Origin: Lacticaseibacillus kribbianus
GTDB taxonomy: Bacteria > Bacillota > Bacilli > Lactobacillales > Lactobacillaceae
NCBI RefSeq assembly: GCF_020180945.1
Contig: NZ_JAIPUL010000002.1
Location: 248,001 to 312,000 of the forward strand
DNA: 64,000 nt
Reading direction: 5' to 3'
The position numbers and the translations under genes were made by a program. Positions 2,138-64,000 of this stretch are shown piece by piece. Every line of letters starts with the position of its first letter. Within the stretch, counting starts at the first letter, position 1. Under the pieces are notes generated by a model. That model was not told the origin of the DNA. It saw nothing but the letters and a program-made list of their open reading frames with translations, and searched no databases.

Positions 2138-2159
2138 CGAAAGCGTGTCATCGACAGGG

Positions 2160-2452
2160 TTTGATCCGCTAGAATGGTCTCTGCCGTCCAGTCGGCGCTT
2201 TTCCGCCCTCTAAACGGGTTCCAAAGCACAACGCGGCGTCGGTTGGCTACGCACTGACGCCGAGGCAAAGACCGCCTCAACGTCAGCGCTAGGCCAGCCG
2301 CACCGCTAAGCCCGCGCTTTTCCACCCTCCAAACGGGCTCCAAAGCGCAACGCGGATACGGCTAGCTACGCTGGGGCGCTCGGGCCAAAGACCGGCCCAA
2401 GCACCCCAGCTAGGCTACCCGATCCGCTAAGTGCGCGCTTTTCCGCCCTCTC
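2160..2452. repeat. Family-1 hairpin repeats, cluster A (fragment plus two full copies)
   Basis: Two ~120-bp units follow a right-end fragment. Each begins near AAACGGG and ends CCGCCCTCT or CCACCCTCC. Each folds into a long imperfect hairpin around an AAAG loop. The central helices differ: the first pairs CTGACGCCGAGGC with GCCTCAACGTCAG, the second GCTGGGGCGCTCGGGCC with GGCCCAAGCACCCCAGC. The outer helix is AAAGCGC/GCGCTTT. The cluster fills the gap between the IIB promoter and tRNA-Thr. Confidence 0.85.
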
Positions 2453-2457
2453 CAAAC

Positions 2458-2486
2458 AAAAATCCCGTCGCTCGCGGCGACGGGAT
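2458..2486 (-). terminator. Rho-independent terminator of tRNA-Thr
   Basis: On the minus strand ATCCCGTCGC and GCGACGGGAT form a 10-bp stem with a 5-base loop, followed by a T tract. It sits about 20 bases past the tRNA 3' end. Confidence 0.85.
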
Positions 2487-2507
2487 TCACGTGCATATTA
2501 TGACTTC

Positions 2508-2580
2508 TGCCGTCTACTGGATTCGAACCAGCGACCTCATCCTTACCATGGATGCGCTCTACCTACTGAGCTAAGACGGC
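2508..2580 (-). tRNA. tRNA-Thr(GGT)
   Basis: A complete 73-nt cloverleaf: acceptor GCCGTCT/AGACGGC, D arm GCTC/GAGC, anticodon stem CATCC/GGATG with loop ATGGTAA (anticodon GGT), and T arm GCTGG/CCAGT with TTCGAAT. The discriminator is A. CCA is not encoded. Confidence 0.97.
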
Positions 2581-2696
2581 ATGTTGTTGGTAAAACAACT
2601 GCCTGATTAATATACAATATTTCCGGGTGTGGTGCAAGCCTTTCGGGTAAAAAGTTTGTCCCTGCTTAACTTTCCCCGTTCCACTCCGAATGGAAC

Positions 2697-3308
2697 TCAT
2701 CGAGGAAGGCGAGCATCACGGCCTGCCGGTGAACGGCTAGGCGGCGGGGCCGCCGGGGTGTTCATCAGGTCGGCCAGCTTCAGGAGCTTTTCGTCGAAGT
2801 GCTTCAGAATCGTGCTTTCGGTACTCCGATAACCGGCCGCGTCGAGCTGGGTGCGCGGGCGAATCGCCGGGTCGTACAGCTTGCTGCCGTGAGCGCCGCC
2901 GTACATCATGGTGCGGGCGATGCCGATGGCGCCGATCGCGTCCAGCCGGTCGGCGTCCTGCACCAGCTGGCCCTCGAGGCTCAGCGCCTGCTTGCCGCCC
3001 AGGCTGGCCTTGAAGCTCATGTGGTCGATGATGGCGATCACTGCCTCAGTTTCGGCGGGCGTGGCGCCGGCTTCGGTCAAAACGGTCAGGGTCGCGGCCT
3101 TGGCTTCGGCGACGTCCGCCACCAGCTTGTCGTCGTAGGTGTCGTGCAAAAGCGCCGCCGCCACGGCGATGTCGGCGTCGGCCGCCGGCGTCTGCGCGAG
3201 CAGGGTGCTGGTCGTGGCGACCACCCGCGTGATGTGATCCATGGCGTGGCCGCTGGCGTCTTGGGCCAGGACGGCACGGGCGTGGGCCCAAAGTGGTTTT
3301 TCCTTCAT
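2697..3308 (-). CDS. HD-domain phosphohydrolase, C-terminus altered by a frameshift
   Basis: As read, 203 aa. The HD superfamily metal-binding layout is visible: H in the N-terminal helix (GHAMDHITRV), HD in LLHDTYDD, and a later D in QDADRLDAIGAIG. Such proteins cleave nucleotides or other phosphomonoesters. The last ~20 residues (Pro/Arg-rich after MNTPAA) are atypical. In another frame the same DNA encodes LAVHRQAVMLAFLDEF and then HSEW, the expected family ending, closing with TAA at 2668-2666. A one-base indel in the C-rich run near 2735-2745 explains this. The start ATG has GGAGG in front. The gene is divergent from marR. Confidence 0.85.
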   Translation of the reverse strand: MKEKPLWAHARAVLAQDASGHAMDHITRVVATTSTLLAQTPAADADIAVAAALLHDTYDDKLVADVAEAKAATLTVLTEAGATPAETEAVIAIIDHMSFKASLGGKQALSLEGQLVQDADRLDAIGAIGIARTMMYGGAHGSKLYDPAIRPRTQLDAAGYRSTESTILKHFDEKLLKLADLMNTPAAPPPSRSPAGRDARLPR

Positions 3309-3325
3309 GGGAGCCTCCTAATTCG

Positions 3326-3355
3326 TTGAGTTCCGTTACTTCACCCCGTTACAAT
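3326..3355 (+). promoter_or_regulatory. Putative promoter of the MarR gene
   Basis: TTGAGT (3326-3331) and TACAAT (3350-3355) are 18 bases apart, just before the AAGGAGGG ribosome site. TTGAGTT occurs twice in this 68-bp divergent gap, a possible repressor target. Confidence 0.45.
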
Positions 3356-3376
3356 TGAGTTAAGGAGGGTGCCGAT

Positions 3377-3790
3377 ATGAAACTTAAATACTTGCAGATG
3401 AACCAGACGCTCAACCAGTTCAATCGCCTCAGCCCCGCCATCGATGACACGATGCGGCCACTGTCCCAGCAGAACCTGCTGTTTTGGGTCGCGGCCGAGG
3501 ATGCGCCGCCGACCCCGACGGCCCTGGCCGAGGCGATGGGCCTGACCAAGGCCGCCATCACCAAAATGCTTAACCCGCTGATCGACGATGGTCTGTTGAC
3601 CAAGACGACCGACGTGCGGGACAACCGCAGCTTCACCCTGTCTCTGACCGACGCCGGCCACCGCGAGGTCGCGGCGCTGAGCCCGACGTACTTCGAGCCG
3701 ATGAACCGCCTGCGCGAGGGCATGGGCAAGCGCCAGTTCGACCAGCTGATCGAGCTGTTGGAAGTGGCGAACGAAGTGCTGATTGACTAG
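3377..3790 (+). CDS. MarR-family transcriptional regulator
   Basis: A 137-aa protein with the MarR winged-helix pattern. The recognition helix region is PTALAEAMGLTKAAITKML, followed by the wing segment (TTDVRDNRSFTLSLTDAG, with the typical D-R/N-R and LT-G). Helices at both ends should form the dimer. AAGGAGGG precedes the ATG by 6 bases. It is divergent from the HD hydrolase and may control it or itself. The stop codon TAG merges directly into a family-1 repeat (TAGAGGGCGGAG). Confidence 0.9.
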   Translation: MKLKYLQMNQTLNQFNRLSPAIDDTMRPLSQQNLLFWVAAEDAPPTPTALAEAMGLTKAAITKMLNPLIDDGLLTKTTDVRDNRSFTLSLTDAGHREVAALSPTYFEPMNRLREGMGKRQFDQLIELLEVANEVLID

Positions 3791-4263
3791 AGGGCGGAGC
3801 GAGGCGAACTTAGCGGATCGGGTAGCCTAGCTGGGGTGTTTGGGCCGGTCTTTGGCCCGAGCGCCCCAGCGTAGCTAGCCGTATCCGCGTTGCCTCGCGG
3901 AGCCCGTTTAAAGAGAGGGCGGAGCGAGGCGAACTTAGCCGGTCGATTAGCGTAAGCCCGGCGCTTGGGTCGCACTTTGGCCCGAGTGCCGGGCTTAGCT
4001 AAGCGAACCGGCGTTGCCTCGCGGAGCCCGTTTAGAGAGAGGGCCGAAAAGTGCGCACTTAGCGGGTCGGATTGCCTAGCCAAGGCACTTGGGCCGGTCT
4101 TTGGCCCGAGTGACTTGGCGTAGCAAGCCGCACCCGCGTTGCGCTTTGGAGCCCGTATAGAGAGAGGGCGGAAAAGCGCGCACTTAGCGGGTCGGGTAGC
4201 CTAGCACTAGCGTTGAGGCGTTCTTTGCCTCGGCGATAGTGCGTAGCTAGCCGCACCCGCGTT
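3787..4263. repeat. Family-1 hairpin repeats, cluster B (four tandem copies)
   Basis: Four units at about 123-125 bp spacing begin near 3787, 3913, 4036 and 4162. They run opposite to cluster A: AGAGGGCGG first, AGCCCGTTT last. Each is a hairpin with a different central stem, for example CTGGGGTGTTTGGGCC/GGCCCGAGCGCCCCAG, CCCGGCGCTTGGGTC/GGCCCGAGTGCCGGG, and CACTAGCGTTGAGGC/GCCTCGGCGATAGTG. The outer helix is GCGAGGC/GCCTCGC in the first two and a GCGC-type helix in the others. The array starts inside the marR stop codon and fills the 600-bp gap before the protease gene. Confidence 0.9.
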
Positions 4264-4403
4264 GCCTCACCAAGCCAGTTTCGCCGCCTGCCCCGTGCAG
4301 GCGGCTTTTTGCTGCGCCCAGCGCTTCGACCATCGTATCACAGATTGCCCGCGTTGGCCGGGTTTGGTGTATAGTTACTGGTAACCAGAAGGGAGTGAGG
4401 CGC

Positions 4404-10517: not shown

Positions 10518-11104
10518 GCGCGGCGCGCGCCGTGCCGGCTAAGTGCGGCCCAAGCGCCAGTGCTAGGCTACCCGATCCGCTAAGTGCGCTTTGCTCCGCC
10601 CTCTAAACGGGCTCCGCCGCGCAACGCCGGTTCGTCTAGCTAAGGCCGGTCATTGGGCCAAAGTGCGGCCCCAACGTCCAGCCTTACGCTAGCCGACCGG
10701 CTGAGTGCGCGCGGCTCCGCCCTCTATTTAAACGGGCTCCGCCGCGCAACGCCGGTTCGTCTAGCTAAGGCCGGTCATTGGGCCAAAGTGCGGCCCCAAC
10801 GTCCAGCCTTACGCTAGCCGACCGGCTGAGTGCGCGCGGCTCCGCCCTCTATTTAAACGGGCTCCGCCGCGCAACGCCGGTTCGTCCAGCTAAGGCCGGT
10901 CATTGGGCCAAAGTGCGGCCCCAACGTCCAGCCTTACGCTAGCCGACCGGCTGAGTGCGCGCGGCTCCGCCCTCTACTTAAACGGGCTCCCCAAGGCGAC
11001 GCCGGCGCGGCTAGCTACGCCGAGTCACTTGGGCCTAAGCGCGGGCCCAAGCGCCTCGGCTAGGCTACCCGGCCGGCTAAGCTCGCCTTGCTCCGCCCTC
11101 TATT
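10518..11104. repeat. Family-1 hairpin repeats, cluster C (half unit plus four tandem copies)
   Basis: After a half unit (10518-10604), four units follow. GCTCC of each unit begins at 10611, 10736, 10861 and 10986, an exact 125-bp period. The first three are almost identical: outer helix GCCGCGC/GCGCGGC, central helix AAGGCCGGTCATTGGGCC/GGCCCCAACGTCCAGCCTT. The fourth differs in both: outer CAAGGCG/CGCCTTG, centre GCCGAGTCACTTGGGCC/GGGCCCAAGCGCCTCGGC. The array ends two bases before the trpS -35 box. Between 10350 and 10517 is an AT-rich stretch that probably holds the glycosyltransferase promoter. Confidence 0.93.
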
Positions 11105-11137: not shown

Positions 11138-12372
<1,235 letters not shown>

Positions 12373-12374
<2 letters not shown>

Positions 12375-12522
12375 AGGGCGGAGCCGAGCGCACTTAGCCG
12401 GTCGGCCAGCGTATGACTGGACGTTGGGCCGCTCTTTGGCCCAATGACCGGTCATAGCTGGACGAACCGGCGTTGCTCGGCGTAGCCCGTTTAAGTAGAG
12501 GGCGGAGCCGAGCGAGCTTAGC
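12373..12522. repeat. Family-1 hairpin repeat, cluster D (one copy plus a truncated second)
   Basis: One full unit begins within the trpS stop codon. Its outer helix is CCGAGC/GCTCGG and its centre ATGACTGGACGTTGGGCC/GGCCCAATGACCGGTCAT. A second unit starts after CCCGTTTAAGTAG but stops after about 25 bases. The position suggests a 3'-UTR role for trpS. Confidence 0.85.
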
Positions 12523-12535
12523 GACAACGACAACA

Positions 12536-25595: not shown

Positions 25596-25605
25596 GGTTG
25601 ACTTG

Positions 25606-25719
25606 TTGCGCCGCCGCGCAGCGCCGGGACAGCCAGCTAAGGCCGAGAATCGGGGCAAAGTGCGCCCCAATCCTCGGCCTTACGCTAGCCGCCCGGCTAA
25701 GTTCGCGCGGCTCTGCCCT
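25606..25719. repeat. Family-1 hairpin repeat, cluster E (one copy)
   Basis: A single unit with outer helix GCCGCGC/GCGCGGC and central helix TAAGGCCGAGAATCGGGGC/GCCCCAATCCTCGGCCTTA. It abuts the stop codon of the RibD-like gene (stop at 25720-25722), so it would be its 3'-UTR. Confidence 0.88.
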
Positions 25720-26247
25720 CTAGTCTAACTTGTACGTCAGGGTCACGAACTGGTCGTGCTGCACGGCGTTGGTCAGGCGCAGCGGAACGTCCGCCAGGTT
25801 CGTGGAGACCAGGCTGATGCCGGAGCCCAAAAGCACCGGCGCGATGGTGATGATCAATTCATCGATCAGCTTCTCCTTCAGCAGGTCGGTGAAGATGTCG
25901 GCCCCGCCGACCAGCCAGATGTCCTTGCCCTTCTTGGCCTTGAGCTGCCGCACGAACTGCGGGATGTTGCCCGCAACCACAGAGGTCGGATCGTCGGTGT
26001 CGTGCAGCGTGGTGGAGAAGACGTAACTTTCCTTGTCTTGGTACGGGTAGACCCCGGCCAGGCGAAGCGCGCGCTGGTAGGTTTTGCGCCCCATCAGAAC
26101 GGTGTCGATCGTCTGGTAGAAGTCTTGGTAGGCTTGGTCGGCCGCGCTGGAGTTCAGCTTGCTCAGGAAGCTGGTGGAGCCGTCCTCCTCGGCGATGAAG
26201 CCGTCTAAGCTTTCAGATAAATACAGGATCACTTTGCGTTCTGTCAT
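25720..26247 (-). CDS. RibD C-terminal/dihydrofolate-reductase-fold protein
   Basis: A 175-aa reductase-fold protein: ILYLSESLDGFIAEEDGS at the N-terminus, TVLMGRKTYQ, DIWLVGGADIFTDLL and LIDELIITIAPVLLGSGI. This group (YwjB/YyaP-like) binds NADPH; substrates are mostly unknown and it is not the housekeeping DHFR. AGAGGGTGG precedes the ATG. The stop codon is followed directly by a family-1 repeat. Confidence 0.88.
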   Translation of the reverse strand: MTERKVILYLSESLDGFIAEEDGSTSFLSKLNSSAADQAYQDFYQTIDTVLMGRKTYQRALRLAGVYPYQDKESYVFSTTLHDTDDPTSVVAGNIPQFVRQLKAKKGKDIWLVGGADIFTDLLKEKLIDELIITIAPVLLGSGISLVSTNLADVPLRLTNAVQHDQFVTLTYKLD

Positions 26248-33440: not shown

Positions 33441-33557
33441 TCAGCCGAACTCGTGTCGCGACGAGTGATCATCGTGGTGGTTCAGCCAGTGCTCAAACAC
33501 TGCGACGAGTACACCCACGATGAGGGGTGCAGTGACTGCGGTATCAAAAACAGACAA
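33441..33557 (-). CDS. Fst-family type I toxin 1 (38 aa)
   Basis: A 38-aa peptide with the Fst toxin pattern: a short N-terminus, the hydrophobic helix TAPLIVGVLVAVFEHWL, and a charged tail (NHHDDHSSRHEFG). Such peptides insert into the membrane and stop growth when their antisense RNA is lost. It starts with TTG at 33557 after AAAGGGGG. The tail is nine residues longer than that of module 2. The matching antitoxin RNA lies downstream on the opposite strand. Confidence 0.85.
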   Translation of the reverse strand: MSVFDTAVTAPLIVGVLVAVFEHWLNHHDDHSSRHEFG

Positions 33558-33827: not shown

Positions 33828-33859
33828 AAAAACCACCGCGGGTTGTGGGACCGCAGTGG
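33828..33859 (-). terminator. Terminator of toxin mRNA 2
   Basis: On the minus strand CCACTGCGG and CCCGCGGTGG pair around an 8-9-base loop, then TTTTTG. Confidence 0.8.
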
Positions 33860-33899
33860 CCGGTGTGGAGCCGGGTGGCTGAGCGCGTCGCTACAAGCG

Positions 33900-33989
33900 C
33901 TAGTCGTGGTGCTGCAGCCAGTGCTCAAAAAGTGCAATGAGCACACCCACGATCAGCGGTGCGGTAACCGCGACATCGAAATCCGACAA
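33900..33989 (-). CDS. Fst-family type I toxin 2 (29 aa)
   Basis: A 29-aa peptide: MSDFDVAV, then TAPLIVGVLIALFEHWL, then QHHD. It is a close paralogue of toxin 1 (same core, TTG start after AAAGGGTG). The hydrophobic helix and APLIVGV motif are diagnostic of the Fst group. Its own antisense RNA gene lies at 33759-33820. Confidence 0.88.
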   Translation of the reverse strand: MSDFDVAVTAPLIVGVLIALFEHWLQHHD

Positions 33990-34043
33990 GTGATGTCACC
34001 CTTTCCGGCGCGGTATCACGCGGCAGGGCGTAGCGACAGACCC

Positions 34044-34067
34044 AGTATACCAAGGCCGCGCCTTCCC
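34044..34067 (-). promoter_or_regulatory. Promoter of toxin 2 mRNA
   Basis: TGGTATACT, an extended -10 with TATACT at 34049-34044, is preceded by ATGACG at about 17-18 bases. Transcription would start some 50 bases before the TTG start. The equivalent for toxin 1 is TGTTACACT near 33625. Confidence 0.6.
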
Positions 34068-34223
34068 GTCATTTTTCCCCGGAGCGGCGGCCGCAAACCC
34101 GCGCGGTGGCGGCATTCCTGCACCGAATTTTGGGTTGGCCGCGGCGGCACGGGGTTTTGGCGTAATTTACTTAGACCGGCCGAACGCGTAGAATGGATGG
34201 ATACGAAACGGGGGAGACGCGAG

Positions 34224-36002
34224 ATGGACACGCAGCACGCTTTATTGAAGGAAAAATTCGGCTACGACGAGTTTCGGCCGGGGCAGGACCAGGCGATCAG
34301 CCGCGTTTTGGCCGGCGACAACACGCTGGTCATCATGCCGACCGGCGGCGGGAAGTCGCTGTGCTACCAGATTCCGGCCCTGATGCTGGACGGGCTGACG
34401 GTCGTGGTGTCGCCCTTAATCGCCCTGATGAAGGACCAGGTCGACGCGCTGAACGAGAACGGCATTCCCGCCACCTTCATCAACAGCACCATCGCCCGCG
34501 GCGAGGCCGACCACCGGCTCGACATGGCGGCGCAGGGTGCGGTCAAGTTGCTGTACGTCGCGCCGGAGCGGCTGGAGATGCCCGACTTTCAGGCCGAGCT
34601 CGGCCAGCTTCGCATCGACCTGTTGGCCGTCGACGAGGCGCACTGCATCTCGCAGTGGGGGCACGATTTTCGCCCCAGCTACCTGGCCATCGCCGACGTC
34701 GCCGCCAGCCTGCCGTCGCACCCGACCGTCATCGCGCTGACCGCCACGGCCACCACCCGCGTCGCAACGGACATCAGCGCGCGGCTGGCGATTCCCGCGG
34801 CCGGGCGCATCAACACCGGCTTCGCGCGGCCCAACCTCAGCTTCAAGGTGATCAAGGACCAGGCCAAGGACGCCTACCTGCTGGACTACCTGCGCCTGAA
34901 CCCGGATTCCGCCGGCATCGTCTACTGCGCCACGCGCAAGGAGGTCGAGCGCCTGCACGACCTGCTGGCCAAAAACGGCATCCAGGTGGCCAAGTACCAC
35001 GCGGGGATGCCCGAGGCCGAGCGCTCGGCGGCCCAGGAGGATTTTCTCTACGACCGCAAGCCGGTGATGGTCGCGACCAACGCCTTTGGCATGGGCATTG
35101 ACAAGAGCAACGTGCGCTTTGTCATCCACGCGCAGGTGCCCGGCGACCTCGAGTCCTACTACCAGGAGGCGGGGCGTGCCGGCCGTGACGGGCTGGACTC
35201 CGAGGCCATCCTGCTGTTCGCTCCGGCCGACCTGCAGATCCGCCGCTTTTTCATCGACCAAAGCGAGGGCGACGACGCGTACCGCGCCAGCGAGTACCAG
35301 AAGCTTCAGGTGATGAACCAGTACGCGAACACCGGCGACTGCCTCCAGCAGTTCATCCTGCGCTACTTCGGCCAGGCGTCGGAACCCTGCGGCCGCTGCT
35401 CCAACTGCCTGGACGACCGCGAGAGCTTCGACGTCACCGTCGACGCGCAGAAGGTGCTGTCCTGCGTCTACCGCATGCACGAGCGCTTCGGCAAGGCACT
35501 GATCGCAGACGTCCTGGCCGGCGCCAAGACCCAGCGCGTCTTGGACCTGCACCTCGACCAGCTCTCGACGTACGGCCTGATGAGCAGTCAGCGGAAAAAG
35601 GACATCAGCGGCTTCATCGACTTTCTGACCGCCGGCGGCTACCTGGCCGCAATCGGCGGCCAGTACCCGACGCTGCACGTGACCGAGGCCGGCGCCGCGG
35701 TCCTGCGCGGCCAGCAGACCGTCGCGCGCAAGCAGGCGGTTCGCGCCACCCGCACCCGGCCGGTCGACGACGCGCTGTTCCAGAAGCTGCGCGACCTGCG
35801 CCGCGAGCTCGCGGAAAAGGGCGGCGTCCCGCCCTACGTCATTTTCTCCGACCAGACCCTGCGTGACCTCTGCGCGGCCAAGCCGCAAAGCGAAGTCGAG
35901 ATGCTGGCGGTCAAGGGCATCGGCCAGGCGAAGTTCGCCAAGTACGGCGAGGTGTTCCTTGAAGCGTTAGCAGAAGACCAGGGCGAAGGCGCGCGGGCTT
36001 AG
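34224..36002 (+). CDS. recQ: ATP-dependent DNA helicase RecQ
   Basis: A 592-aa RecQ. Helicase motifs: FRPGQDQAI, MPTGGGKSLCYQIPA (motif I), VDEAHCISQWGHDFRP (motif II), YYQEAGRAGRDG (motif VI). A zinc site follows (CLQQF, CGRCSNCLD), then a winged helix and a C-terminal HRDC domain (residues ~515-585, ending VKGIGQAKFAKYGEVFLEAL). It unwinds recombination and replication intermediates. I started at the ATG at 34224 after GGGGGAG. The stop codon lies in GGGCTTAGCGGGTCG, which resembles family-1 repeat sequence. Confidence 0.95.
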   Translation: MDTQHALLKEKFGYDEFRPGQDQAISRVLAGDNTLVIMPTGGGKSLCYQIPALMLDGLTVVVSPLIALMKDQVDALNENGIPATFINSTIARGEADHRLDMAAQGAVKLLYVAPERLEMPDFQAELGQLRIDLLAVDEAHCISQWGHDFRPSYLAIADVAASLPSHPTVIALTATATTRVATDISARLAIPAAGRINTGFARPNLSFKVIKDQAKDAYLLDYLRLNPDSAGIVYCATRKEVERLHDLLAKNGIQVAKYHAGMPEAERSAAQEDFLYDRKPVMVATNAFGMGIDKSNVRFVIHAQVPGDLESYYQEAGRAGRDGLDSEAILLFAPADLQIRRFFIDQSEGDDAYRASEYQKLQVMNQYANTGDCLQQFILRYFGQASEPCGRCSNCLDDRESFDVTVDAQKVLSCVYRMHERFGKALIADVLAGAKTQRVLDLHLDQLSTYGLMSSQRKKDISGFIDFLTAGGYLAAIGGQYPTLHVTEAGAAVLRGQQTVARKQAVRATRTRPVDDALFQKLRDLRRELAEKGGVPPYVIFSDQTLRDLCAAKPQSEVEMLAVKGIGQAKFAKYGEVFLEALAEDQGEGARA

Positions 36003-36030: not shown

Positions 36031-36381
36031 AAACCGGCCGCGGGTTCCGGTCCGGCAGGCGGCTGCGGCTGTGCGGCCGGTTTCCGCCCGAGACGGGCTC
36101 CGCAAGGCAACGCCGGTGCGCTCAGCTAGGGCCAGCACTCGAAGCAAAAGGCGCTTCAAGCGCTGGCCCTACGCTGACCGACCGGCTAAGTGCGCCTTGC
36201 TCCGCCCTCTATTCGGGCTCCAACCTAAAAGATGAGCCAACCGTCGCCTGCGGCTCCTTTGGTTGTCTCATCTTTTGCCGGGAGCAGCCACGCGAAAGCC
36301 TCGCCAAGTGCGCGAGTCTTCCGGGTGGCTGCTCCTTTCACGGCCTCCGCCGCCTGCCGGACCTCCACCCGCGGCCGGTTT
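36031..36381. repeat. Family-3 structured element, copy 1 (split by a family-1 insertion)
   Basis: Terminal arms AAACCGGCCGCGGG + GGTCCGGCAGGCGGC (36031-36065) pair almost perfectly with GCCGCCTGCCGGACC + CCCGCGGCCGGTTT (36350-36381). Inside are AAAAGATGAG/CTCATCTTTT with CCAACC/GGTTG, and GGAGCAGCCAC/GTGGCTGCTCC. A family-1 unit occupies 36094-36221. Copy 2 at 54129-54337 has the same blocks without this insertion. Confidence 0.85.
36094..36221. repeat. Family-1 hairpin repeat, cluster F, inserted in family 3
   Basis: One unit with outer helix GCAAGGC/GCCTTGC and centre TAGGGCCAGCACTCGAAGC/GCTTCAAGCGCTGGCCCTA. CGGGCTCC occurs at both ends (36094-36101 and 36214-36221), while family-3 copy 2 has it once. 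A fragment of the right end also overlaps the recQ stop (about 35990-36020). Confidence 0.88.
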
Positions 36382-54128: not shown

Positions 54129-54337
54129 GCGGCCTCCGGGCTCCGGGGCGAGGCGGGCTGTGCGGCCGGTCTCCGCCCGCGGGCTCCGACCTAAAAGTTG
54201 AGCCAACCCTCGCCTGCGGCTCGTTGGTTGTCTCACCTTTTGCCGAGATTCGCCGCGCGAATGCCCCGCCAAACCCGCGGCTCATCCGAGCGGCTAATCC
54301 TTTCACGGCCCGCCTCGCCCCGGAGCCCTCCGGCCGC
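54129..54337. repeat. Family-3 structured element, copy 2
   Basis: Terminal arms GCGGCC + GGCTCCGGGGCGAGGCGGG pair with CCCGCCTCGCCCCGGAGCC + GGCCGC (19 bp perfect). Inside are AAAAGTTGAG/CTCACCTTTT with CCAACC/GGTTG, and GATTCGCCGC/GCGGCTAATC. The conserved blocks TGTGCGGCCGGT and TTTCACGGCC match copy 1, while stem sequences differ but still pair. It lies in the 690-bp gap upstream of the acyltransferase gene. Confidence 0.85.
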
Positions 54338-54507
54338 TACATCGTGGATCCGACGGCGGGGATGGTGTGCAAGGCGACGCTGACAATGGCGAGGCCAACG
54401 AGACGTATTTCCAATGCCGCTGACTGCGTTGCCTATCTGGAACAAGGTGGCCAGCGCGCAAAGCGCCAGCGGCGTGGCAACCCATCGCGGTGTGACTGAT
54501 CGGCCAC

Positions 54508-54713
54508 TAGGTAGGGCGGAGGCGCGGACCGACCACTGCTGCAGGCGGAGGGCCGGGGCGAGCCAGCGTGAGATTGCTGTTAGCCGGGTGGTTTTCCCGG
54601 CTTACAGCAAGGGCGGGTCGCAAGACCGCACTTTGGGCTTGCGGGAGCCCCACGCGTTCCGCCGCCCCGGTCCGGAGCCGAAAGCAGTGGTCCGTCCGGG
54701 CCGGAGCCCGGGC
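54508..54713. repeat. Family-2 structured element, copy 1
   Basis: Helices: GGACCGACCACTGCT/AGCAGTGGTCCGTCC closes the element; CCGGGGCG/CGCCCCGG; TTGCTGT + AGCCGGG / CCCGGCT + TACAGCAA; CGCAAG/CTTGCG. Conserved single-stranded blocks GAGCCAGCGTGA and AGCCCCACGCGTTCCGCC. It abuts the stop codon of the minus-strand ATPase gene. No coding frame is conserved between copies. Confidence 0.85.
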
Positions 54714-57244: not shown

Positions 57245-57405
57245 GGTCGTGCGATGCGGTGAAGGATTGGACTGGTTATCCGGCGTGCTAGGAACAGTCA
57301 AGCATTCGAGGTCAAGTGAGCTGCAACTGCTAGCACTAGGACGCGTCTTAAAGCGTGATTGACCGTCTTTAGCACCGAATGCCGTTATTTGATGAGATTA
57401 GCCAC

Positions 57406-57607
57406 TCGGTAGAGCGGAGGCTCGGACGCACCACTGCTGGAGGTGGAGTGCCGGAGCGAGCCAGCGTGAAATTGCTGTTGGCCGGCCGAACCTGCCGGCT
57501 TACAGCAAGGGCGGGTCTTGAGCCCGGAACGGGCTCAGGAGAGCCCCACGCGTTCCGCCGCTCCGGCCCGGAACCGGAAGTAGTGGTGTGGCCGGGCCGG
57601 AGCCAGG
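57406..57607. repeat. Family-2 structured element, copy 2
   Basis: Same order as copy 1 with compensating changes: CACCACTGCT/AGTAGTGGTG; CCGGAGCG/CGCTCCGG (copy 1 GGGGCG/CGCCCC); TTGCTGT + GGCCGGC / GCCGGCT + TACAGCAA (copy 1 AGCCGGG/CCCGGCT); GAGCCC/GGGCTC replacing CGCAAG/CTTGCG. The blocks GAGCCAGCGTGA and AGCCCCACGCGTTCCGCC are identical. It lies about 70 bases downstream of a minus-strand gene, as copy 1 does. Confidence 0.85.
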
Positions 57608-57611
57608 TGCC

Positions 57612-57674
57612 GCAAACGGGCTTCGCCGGGTAACGCGGGTGCGAGCCGCTAAGCCCGCCCGGCTTTGCCCTCTC
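57612..57674. repeat. Family-1 repeat, cluster G (centrally deleted copy)
   Basis: AAACGGGCTTCGCCGGGTAA at one end and CGCTAAGCCCGCCCGGCTTT at the other belong to a family-1 unit, but the central hairpin is missing. It touches the stop codon of the polyprenyl synthase gene. Confidence 0.75.
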
Positions 57675-62983: not shown

Positions 62984-63150
62984 GTGCAAGGGCTGGCGAT
63001 CCCGCTAAGCCCGCGCTTTTCCACCTGCTAAACGGGTTCCAAAGCGCAACGCGGGCGCGTCTAGCTACGCACCAGCGCCGGGGCACAACCCGCCCCAACG
63101 CTTGTGCTAGGCTATTCGATCCGCTAAGCCCGCGCTTTTCCACCCTCTCA
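62984..63150. repeat. Family-1 hairpin repeat, cluster H, in the apbE leader
   Basis: A right-end fragment (62984-63030) precedes one full unit with outer helix AAAGCGC/GCGCTTT and centre TACGCACCAGCGCCGGGGC/GCCCCAACGCTTGTGCTAG. It ends CCACCCTCT, directly before the AAAGGAG ribosome site of apbE. Confidence 0.85.
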
Positions 63151-63164
63151 AAGGAGATTTTTAT

Positions 63165-64000
63165 ATGAAGAAATGGCTTTTTGCGGCGGTTGCCGCACTG
63201 GCTTTGGCCGCCCCGCTTGCCGGGTGCAAGCCGGCGGGCGACGCCGACACCGCAAGCTCCAGCAGCAAGGCGGCCACCGCCGAGCTTTTGACCACCCCGT
63301 ACGAGGACACCAAGTTCCTGATGGGGACCGTGGTCACGCTGCGCATCTACGATCAGGGCAAGGAGCGCGTGCTGGACAAGGCCTTCGCCCGCATTGAGGA
63401 GCTGGCCGACGCCATCACCGTCAACCAGAAGGGCTCGCAGGTCGACGCGATCAACGCGGCGGCCGGCGAGAAGGCGGTGAAGGTGGACGCGGACGTGTTC
63501 AACCTGGTCGAATACGCCAAGAACTGGTCGGAAAAATCCGACGGTTCCTTTGACCTCGCCATCGGCCCGATCACGTCGATGTGGCACATCGGCTTCAACG
63601 ACGCGCGCAAGCCGGCGCAGTCCGAGATCGACGCCGCGCTGCCGCTCGTGCACTACCAGGACGTCGAGCTCAACGCCGCCAAGCGGACCGTTTTTTTGAA
63701 GAAAAAGGGGATGCAGATCGACCTCGGCGGCATCGCCAAGGGCTACATCACGGATCTGGCGACGCAGACCATGAAGGACAACGGCGTCACCACCGCGATC
63801 CTCGACCTCGGCGGCAACATCTACGTGCTGGGGCACAGCCCCAAGGCACCGGGCAAGGACTGGACGATCGGCATTCAGGACCCGAAGAAGACCCGCGGCA
63901 CGTCGATCGGCACGATGCCGGCCAGCAACAAGACCATCGTCACCAGCGGCATCTACGAGCGCTACCTGAAGGTCGACGGCAAGCTCTACATGCACCTGAT
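63165..64000 (+). CDS. apbE: FAD:protein FMN transferase ApbE, lipoprotein (runs off the window)
   Basis: The first 278 codons are present. Signal with lipobox LAGC (Cys21), a Ser/Ala linker, then the ApbE domain: TKFLMGTVVTLRIYD, SDGSFDLAIGPI, GMQIDLGGIAKGYITD and AILDLGGNIYVLG. It attaches FMN from FAD to Thr in the (D/S)GAT motifs of PplA outside the membrane, with Mg2+. AAAGGAG lies 7 bases before the ATG. Location next to pplA fixes its role in EET. Confidence 0.95.
   Translation, partial: MKKWLFAAVAALALAAPLAGCKPAGDADTASSSSKAATAELLTTPYEDTKFLMGTVVTLRIYDQGKERVLDKAFARIEELADAITVNQKGSQVDAINAAAGEKAVKVDADVFNLVEYAKNWSEKSDGSFDLAIGPITSMWHIGFNDARKPAQSEIDAALPLVHYQDVELNAAKRTVFLKKKGMQIDLGGIAKGYITDLATQTMKDNGVTTAILDLGGNIYVLGHSPKAPGKDWTIGIQDPKKTRGTSIGTMPASNKTIVTSGIYERYLKVDGKLYMHL

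Follow-up and report, generated by a model that had tools for sequence, protein, structure and literature searches.

The window, by which we mean the whole 64,000-nucleotide stretch of Lacticaseibacillus kribbianus DNA that was analysed, contains 14 full copies of a repeat unit of about 120 nt (119-122 nt). An earlier note, made from the letters alone, had placed 14 full units in clusters at 2.2, 3.8, 10.6, 12.4, 25.6, 36.1 and 63.0 kb, and all of them were found there. The units are read here on the strand that we call R (AGAGGGCGGA...GGAGCCCGTTT), the reverse complement of the strand in that note, and the signs below give the direction of R. The array of four at 3789-4281 begins with a unit of end type I at 3789-3909 (+), next to a MarR-family gene (3377-3790) whose TAG stop codon is made up of the gene's own T and the AG of the unit. 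It is followed by full units at 3914-4033 (+), 4038-4158 (+) and 4163-4281 (+); the last of these has a degraded outer helix and the weakest fold of the array, and a terminator-like hairpin, seen in the sequence, comes next. At 2212-2451 there are two full units, the one at 2331-2451 (-) lying directly behind the terminator-like hairpin and T-run of tRNA-Thr (2507-2581, minus strand) and the second at 2212-2330 (-). Four more (10605-11101) lie between divergent genes, at 10980-11101 (-), which is the first, 10855-10975 (-), 10730-10850 (-) and 10605-10725 (-), the latter two being identical in sequence, and a 3'-degraded unit at 10538-10604 (-) ends this array.

The other full units are single. 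The unit at 12373-12492 (+) sits at the trpS stop codon, again split as T|AG, with the 5' remnant of a second unit behind it (12497-12530, +, the 3' limit being approximate). The unit at 25602-25721 (-) is located at the stop codon of a minus-strand gene (25720-26247) encoding a RibD C-terminal/DHFR-like domain; its 3' end is degenerate, and it was scored as partial in the genome-wide HMM set. The unit at 36091-36210 (-) lies within another palindromic repeat (GGTTGGAGCCCGA...CGGGCGGAAACC), and that at 63030-63148 (-) is antisense, immediately upstream of AAAGGAG and a plus-strand ATG at 63165. An internally deleted unit of 60 nt at 57614-57673 (-) has both ends and no central hairpin. When 13 of the 14 units were aligned with MAFFT (an identical copy was omitted), mean column identity was 79% and the variable columns fell in the stems; the compensated stem switches that the earlier note had named are real in these units.

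Other repeats and features are found nearby. A second palindromic family, 131 nt long, is present at 54498-54628 and 57396-57526 (82% alike; the inner hairpin of the first copy is TTGCTGTTAGC...GCTTACAGCAA), and stretches like it lie near units at loci L008, L014 and L027. A further repeat occupies 36259-36372 and 54224-54337 (74% alike). A 106-nt direct repeat at 33452-33557 and 33884-33989 (77% alike, 432 bases apart) has its second copy inside a RecQ-like gene (33843-36002). A palindrome bounded by GGTTGGAGCC / CGGGCGGAAACC encloses the unit at 36091, as well as units at L011, L012 and L018, and seems to act as a landing site for units. Upstream of trpS, at about 11150-11335, there is a T-box-like leader with the motif GGTGGTACCGCG, which we take to be the T-box motif; this leader was not reported by the Rfam T-box model at the model's cut-off.

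Structure and strand of the unit

On R, the unit is one nearly continuous hairpin, running from a 4-bp base to a CUUUG-type loop. A GGA/GGA internal loop separates the base from an 8-bp helix; after a UUA-type bulge comes a further helix, and then a CUA/GUA internal loop and a private central helix of about 18 bp that carries the apical loop. The upper internal loop has two versions, CCTAGC/GCGTAGC and GCGTAAG/CTTAGC, which are found next to each other in arrays of this genome. Three of the four units at 3.8 kb, the degraded fourth being left out, gave RNA fold z-scores of -6.3, -8.1 and -9.8 on R with none of 200 shuffles folding as well, which excludes a chance fold. The terminal base pair is C-G, A-T or T-A in 226 of the 234 full copies from this genome (122, 103 and 1, respectively) and in 91 of 97 copies from relatives (A-T 75, C-G 12, T-A 4). 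Since the terminal bases pair and covary, the hairpin is the whole element.

The orientation given previously, ACGGGCTCC...CCGCCCTCT with an AAAG loop, is not that of the selected strand. Across all 234 full copies R folds about 12 kcal/mol better than its complement (e.g., means of -78.5 vs -66.5 for 153 units and -79.1 vs -66.9 for 69 units), because the G.U pairs sit on R, and in the three units tested energy models favour R both as RNA and as DNA. Cells with G.U outnumber those with A.C by 669:38 in the copies from this genome, by 404:37 in relatives and by 141:10 in a third set of 40. Part of this excess comes from fixed wobble pairs (e.g., G.U in 135 of 147 rows), and the ratio in this genome is 254:31 once the four pairs in which a wobble is the most frequent state are left out. 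It can therefore be deduced that one strand is constrained, which excludes that selection acts on a symmetric double-stranded cruciform. The earlier proposal was that the structure is maintained in one of two forms, RNA or a DNA hairpin that serves in copying. The structure is indeed kept and the double-stranded cruciform drops out; the selected form is RNA or single-stranded DNA, both of which fit the G.U excess.

Pairing is maintained throughout the family. In an alignment of 147 distinct rows from the L. kribbianus genome (A5), 96.3% of pair cells were paired, against 78.2% with partners shuffled; two-sided changes were present at 37 of 45 pairs, and shifting the partner by 1-3 columns lowered pairing to 34-43%. 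The family-wide alignment A6 (97 rows) gave 92.8% against 58.8% when shuffled, a score of 0.829 against at most 0.098 when slid, and 43 pairs with two-sided change, a count reached in 7 of 500 shuffles. Both alignments were fitted to the covariance model, which favours the model, so mutations were tested directly in the closest pairs of copies. For this purpose, 82 disjoint, ungapped pairs of equal length were formed greedily and without a tree, and the same base changes were placed at random. Two-sided Watson-Crick swaps numbered 175 vs 18.4 expected, and pair-keeping double changes 181 vs 21.6, an excess of about eightfold. One-sided changes from Watson-Crick pairs to G.U (97 vs 166 expected), one-sided changes to A.C (26 vs 121) and changes to a mismatch (80 vs 268) were all depleted. 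With the base changes held fixed, deamination bias does not explain the excess. The previous claim that covariation reflects a maintained structure is thus borne out by the closest pairs and by A6, with pairs of copies in place of a tree-based test.

Selection is also seen on recent changes. In 21 pairs of same-array near-duplicates with 1-6 differences, changes to A.C numbered 2 vs 8.2 expected, and changes that keep pairing on R occurred at the neutral rate (21 vs 20.6); in tandem near-duplicates with 1-12 differences, A.C changes numbered 4 vs 19.7. These tests, and those by gene context, used ungapped pairs of equal length, greedily paired and without a tree. Changes to A.C were 4 vs 43.7 expected where R is antisense to the adjacent gene (ratio 0.09, 25 pairs), 7 vs 31.6 at stop codons (0.22, 19 pairs) and 17 vs 56.0 more than 20 nt past a stop codon (0.30, 31 pairs), and over all co-directional units they stood at 0.36 of expectation (53 pairs). 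A function in the 3' UTR would predict constraint mainly where the transcript contains R. Constraint is no weaker in the antisense arrays, which makes the fold a property of the element and not a 3'-UTR service, and the 3'-UTR function hinted at earlier is unsupported.

Copies, arrays and their sites

At least 150 copies in the genome were matched by the covariance model R1. In 311 kb around the best 150 of these matches, an HMM identified at least 234 full and 23 partial copies, a lower bound given how the stretches were picked, and one that includes 13 of the 14 window units. The copies form 115 arrays, of which 111 include at least one full unit, and all 75 multi-unit arrays are uniform in orientation. 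Two main end types, AGA...TTT (type I) and CCA...ACG (type II), are found in 51 of the 111 arrays each, with ACA...ACT in three and other ends in six. A replication-strand bias was considered and dropped, as array orientations look mixed along the contigs by eye. When every third unit (78 of 234) was compared with the units of other arrays, its best match had a median identity of 86% and a maximum of 96%; of 1500 random between-array pairs, 0.3% exceeded 90%, the best reaching 99%. With so few dispersed copies near-identical, dispersal looks mostly old, and movement in the species may be old or rare.

The arrays show a preference for particular sites. Genes around them were called by a custom codon-usage script. 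Of the 105 arrays with a called gene upstream of R, 74 are co-directional with that gene and 31 run against it; between tandem genes there are 47 sense vs 24 antisense arrays. Measured from the stop codon, 28 of the 74 co-directional arrays begin within -2 to +8 (13 at -2), and no array begins in the interval from +9 to +23. Type I arrays split the stop codon as T|AG, with T from the gene and AG from the unit, in 11 of 20 co-directional cases; 14 of the 51 are immediately preceded by an anti-Shine-Dalgarno-like motif, and five type I units sit within another palindromic repeat. For type II, 31 of 51 arrays begin a few bases past a run of at least four T. Moving the search upstream by 40, 80, 120 or 160 bases gave 2, 3, 1 and 1 of 51, and searching the opposite strand at the unit gave 1 of 51; 8 of 51 type I arrays start in this way. 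In other genomes the T-run rule is less sharp, with 5 of 11 arrays in genome G027 and 2 of 10 in G181 following it as judged by eye. There is no fixed TA flank: the base at -1 of the unit is T in 23 of the 51 type I arrays and in 10 of the 51 type II arrays. In 14 of 39 type II arrays (2.0 shuffled) the spacers repeat the final three bases of the flank, a faint hint of target duplication; for type I the figure is 3 of 13 (1.3 shuffled).

Arrays also run one way, with remnants at the far end. In 78 of 111 arrays the last full unit is followed by a stretch resembling a unit start (10 for a reversed-motif control), and in 10 of 111 the first is preceded by a stretch resembling a unit end (control 3); partial units detected by the HMM come after the last full unit in 17 arrays and before the first in no array. 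First and last units differ in fold energy (-80.1 vs -76.5, p 0.022), which gives weak backing to an age polarity along arrays, and do not differ in HMM bits (84.6 vs 83.7, p 0.65).

Sites may be occupied or empty in relatives. Downstream of trpS, no unit was present in any of the 12 relatives displayed. In 400 kb of the close relative G010, the HMM detected no unit at 12 of the 13 sites (of the 115 arrays) for which both flanks could be aligned, some of these 12 being loose, with flank alignments hundreds of bases apart and one doubtful right flank. One of the 12 contains a unit remnant beginning at the same terminator, and one clean empty site has a stop codon on one side and a Shine-Dalgarno site on the other, with AGGAG flanking the insertion on both sides. 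The MarR site is occupied, by different units, in L. parakribbianus too, which is the closest relative with a name that was found; unit-by-unit orthology there was uninformative, the units being about as unlike as random pairs. Within that L. parakribbianus array (L088, 2347-2833), the order is mirrored: unit 1 resembles unit 4, and unit 2 is nearly identical to unit 3.

Further afield, R1 matches were present in at least 19 of 30 genomes of the genus and, among the matches listed (60 candidates scored), in none of 30 other genomes; R1 is a narrow model. A family sample, with 11 candidates scored, had matches in at least 34 of 301 genomes and at least 9 of 40 genera. With the broader model R2 and 12 candidates scored, an order-wide sample yielded matches in at least 20 of 295 genomes and at least 12 of 74 genera, including three further families, and relatives of the unit thus occur in at least four families of Lactobacillales. 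Copy number differs widely between species. Structure models catch copies that sequence search misses: genomes G022, G005 and G027 had 0, 1 and 8 matches in the stricter R1 search, among the matches listed (60 candidates scored), and 59, 83 and 144 with R2. Nine out-of-family copies were displayed, of which eight have AGA...TTT ends and eight fold better on R; the two from G501 fold poorly (-45 and -41 kcal/mol).

Copies are also carried by plasmids of L. paracasei, L. rhamnosus and Pediococcus. A query from G027 matched 15 plasmid records, and queries from L. kribbianus, G148 and G368 matched none; two queries against phages gave no match. One L. paracasei plasmid site varies, holding an internally deleted unit only (three of six such records were aligned), one full unit in p1, or two full units ahead of the deleted one in pWX3. 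Among near-identical plasmids, the middle of a unit is missing in P. acidilactici pHN9-1, a unit is partly missing in L. paracasei p2, and only the 3' end is kept in L. plantarum pLP12-1. Close plasmid pairs differ through deletions inside units and not through clean insertion. Loss of units via deletion is therefore seen, and gain would take place at the anchor side. The near-identical L. paracasei, L. plantarum and Pediococcus plasmids (L290-L304) could serve as a natural assay of palindrome loss.

Candidate enzymes and libraries

No Y1 transposase (PF01797) was found in the L. kribbianus genome or in the high-copy relatives G001 and G010; the domain is present in 13 of 30 genomes of the genus, with no obvious relation, by eye, to unit copy number. 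Reverse transcriptase (PF00078) is absent from the L. kribbianus genome and present in 11 of 30 in the genus, and DDE_3 (PF13358) was found in neither (0 of 30 in the genus). For the IS110 transposase (PF01548), the L. kribbianus genome has one fragment with a stop and no intact gene, G010 has none and 14 of 30 genus genomes have it. The integron integrase model (TIGR02249) matched in 30 of 30 genomes with no match above the cut-off, 14 controls giving the same, and the tyrosine recombinases of L. kribbianus score below that cut-off. A longer, autonomous element with unit ends was not detected in the L. kribbianus stretches, in the 400 kb of G010 or in L088-L107.

With Rfam 15, tRNA alone scored above the gathering score in the window; at E<=5, positions 2150-4300 gave only weak sub-threshold matches, mostly to miRNA models, and 38 relative and plasmid loci had no family over a unit. 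Membership in Lacto-3/Ref68 was rejected, since the match in L241 adjoins a unit and does not lie over it. The literature searched, including PMC2267715 and PMC2864571, gave no recognisable description of the units; its coverage of subscription journals is sparse, and an earlier description is possible. In the libraries and literature searched, no known repeat family accounts for the units.

Possible explanations and known systems

The units have the look of very small mobile elements that are recognised by their shape and form a so far undescribed family. We consider it somewhat probable that they are mobile hairpins, not autonomous, that act as folded RNA or as single-stranded DNA and are moved by a putative enzyme. 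Each element would be exactly one hairpin of about 120 nt, from first base to last, and the acting form would be one folded strand, the AGA...TTT strand, as RNA or single-stranded DNA. Recognition could depend on the closed terminal pair, the conserved bulge, the 3x3 internal loop (CUA/GUA) and the CUUUG-type apical loop, leaving the stem letters free provided pairing is kept. The putative enzyme would insert units at gene ends, i.e., at a stop codon, at a terminator T-run or beside Shine-Dalgarno sites, and mobility would be the selected function. New units might enter beside the anchor, with older ones pushed outward and lost by deletion. A SINE-like bacterial element, in which a hairpin RNA or single-stranded DNA is recognised by shape, a putative enzyme reads gene ends, and anchored one-way arrays keep the order of insertion age, is possible, and we put it forward tentatively.

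Several findings weigh against mobility. The L. kribbianus genome has no mobilising enzyme among the tested Y1, reverse transcriptase and DDE_3 families and only a fragment of IS110; few dispersed copies are near-identical; some sites are common to relatives (MarR in L. parakribbianus and the remnant in G010); plasmid pairs differ by within-unit deletions; the sign of target duplication is weak; and the T-run rule is weaker in G027 and G181. If movement is old or rare, lasting constraint requires either rare ongoing movement or an in-place role of the folded strand, a tension that is the weakest point of the mobile-element explanation.

A rival explanation is a host-serving RNA, in which hairpins in 3' UTRs or intergenic regions stabilise, process or insulate the neighbouring transcripts. 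The selection that lasts on the very short branches of tandem near-duplicates, the co-directional bias (74 of 105 arrays, and 47 sense vs 24 antisense in tandem gene pairs) and the 3'-end position all agree with this; however, the same-strand constraint is not weaker in antisense arrays (4 vs 43.7) or more than 20 nt past the stop (17 vs 56.0), most compared sites are empty in relatives and copy number varies widely between species, and we regard a host function as unlikely. Somewhat less likely still is that the units are MITE relics of an ordinary DDE transposon or of a REP/RAYT-type system whose transposase has since been lost from this genome. Their size, copy number, intergenic placement and inverted ends recall ERIC, RUP, Correia and BOX, and the broad features of MITEs (short length, inverted ends, high copy number, presence or absence between relatives) are there, but the flanks do not fit a TA-target MITE, there being no fixed TA, and copies remain structurally constrained even though the tested transposase families are absent from the genome. 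It is very improbable that covariation arose without selection, through palindrome arms corrected by template switching. The arms are long and near-perfect, and deletions within units occur between near-identical plasmids, as such a process might leave; yet a strand-symmetric process would not give G.U:A.C of 669:38, nor deplete A.C at a fixed mutation spectrum, and unpaired motifs are common to different genera. A cruciform or arm-correction origin was accordingly rejected on the strand asymmetry.

Small interspersed palindromes are commonly regarded as relics in decay; here hundreds of copies hold a one-strand fold while sequence identity falls, and constraint was found in each gene context tested. 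What selects bacterial repeat hairpins thereby becomes directly testable in organisms that are safe and cultivable. The units also point to a putative enzyme with stop codons, terminators and Shine-Dalgarno sites as its targets.

Among known systems, integron attC sites have a fixed frame and a variable terminal stem, act as a folded single strand and stand in one-way arrays. The units work like attC, and differ in that the 30 genomes have no integrase above the cut-off, there are no cassettes, and there are more than 100 arrays instead of one. In REP/RAYT and IS200/IS605 systems a hairpin is recognised on one strand, which the units resemble, without a Y1 transposase in L. kribbianus, G001 or G010. 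Group IIC introns insert behind intrinsic terminators and share that site with the units, whereas the L. kribbianus genome is without reverse transcriptase and the unit is a single 120-nt hairpin and not an intron. EFAR of Enterococcus faecalis are palindromic repeats of a Lactobacillales species near terminators; the likeness is one of description, and no EFAR paper was found in the literature searched. IS630-type MITEs (ERIC, RUP, Correia) duplicate a TA target. ERIC are about 127 bp and target TA, and the units are likewise palindromic, intergenic, high in copy number and of similar size. Their sites are a stop codon, terminator or Shine-Dalgarno site instead of TA and, going by description, they are unlike ERIC in their nearly private stems and tandem one-way arrays. 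A review describes ERIC as imperfect intergenic palindromes in tens to hundreds of copies, of which those at 3' ends can affect mRNA (PMC10969869). REP are given as 20-40 bp in PMC3733652. BOX, RUP and SPRITE of pneumococcus, according to PMC3049150, are predicted to fold when transcribed and are over-represented between convergent genes. Their hosts, like those of the units, are Lactobacillales; BOX is modular (A-B-C) whereas the unit is a complete hairpin repeated head to tail, a distinction made by description. The units fail the tested defining features of each of the narrow families, and we file them among the small interspersed palindromic repeats, as a new variety.
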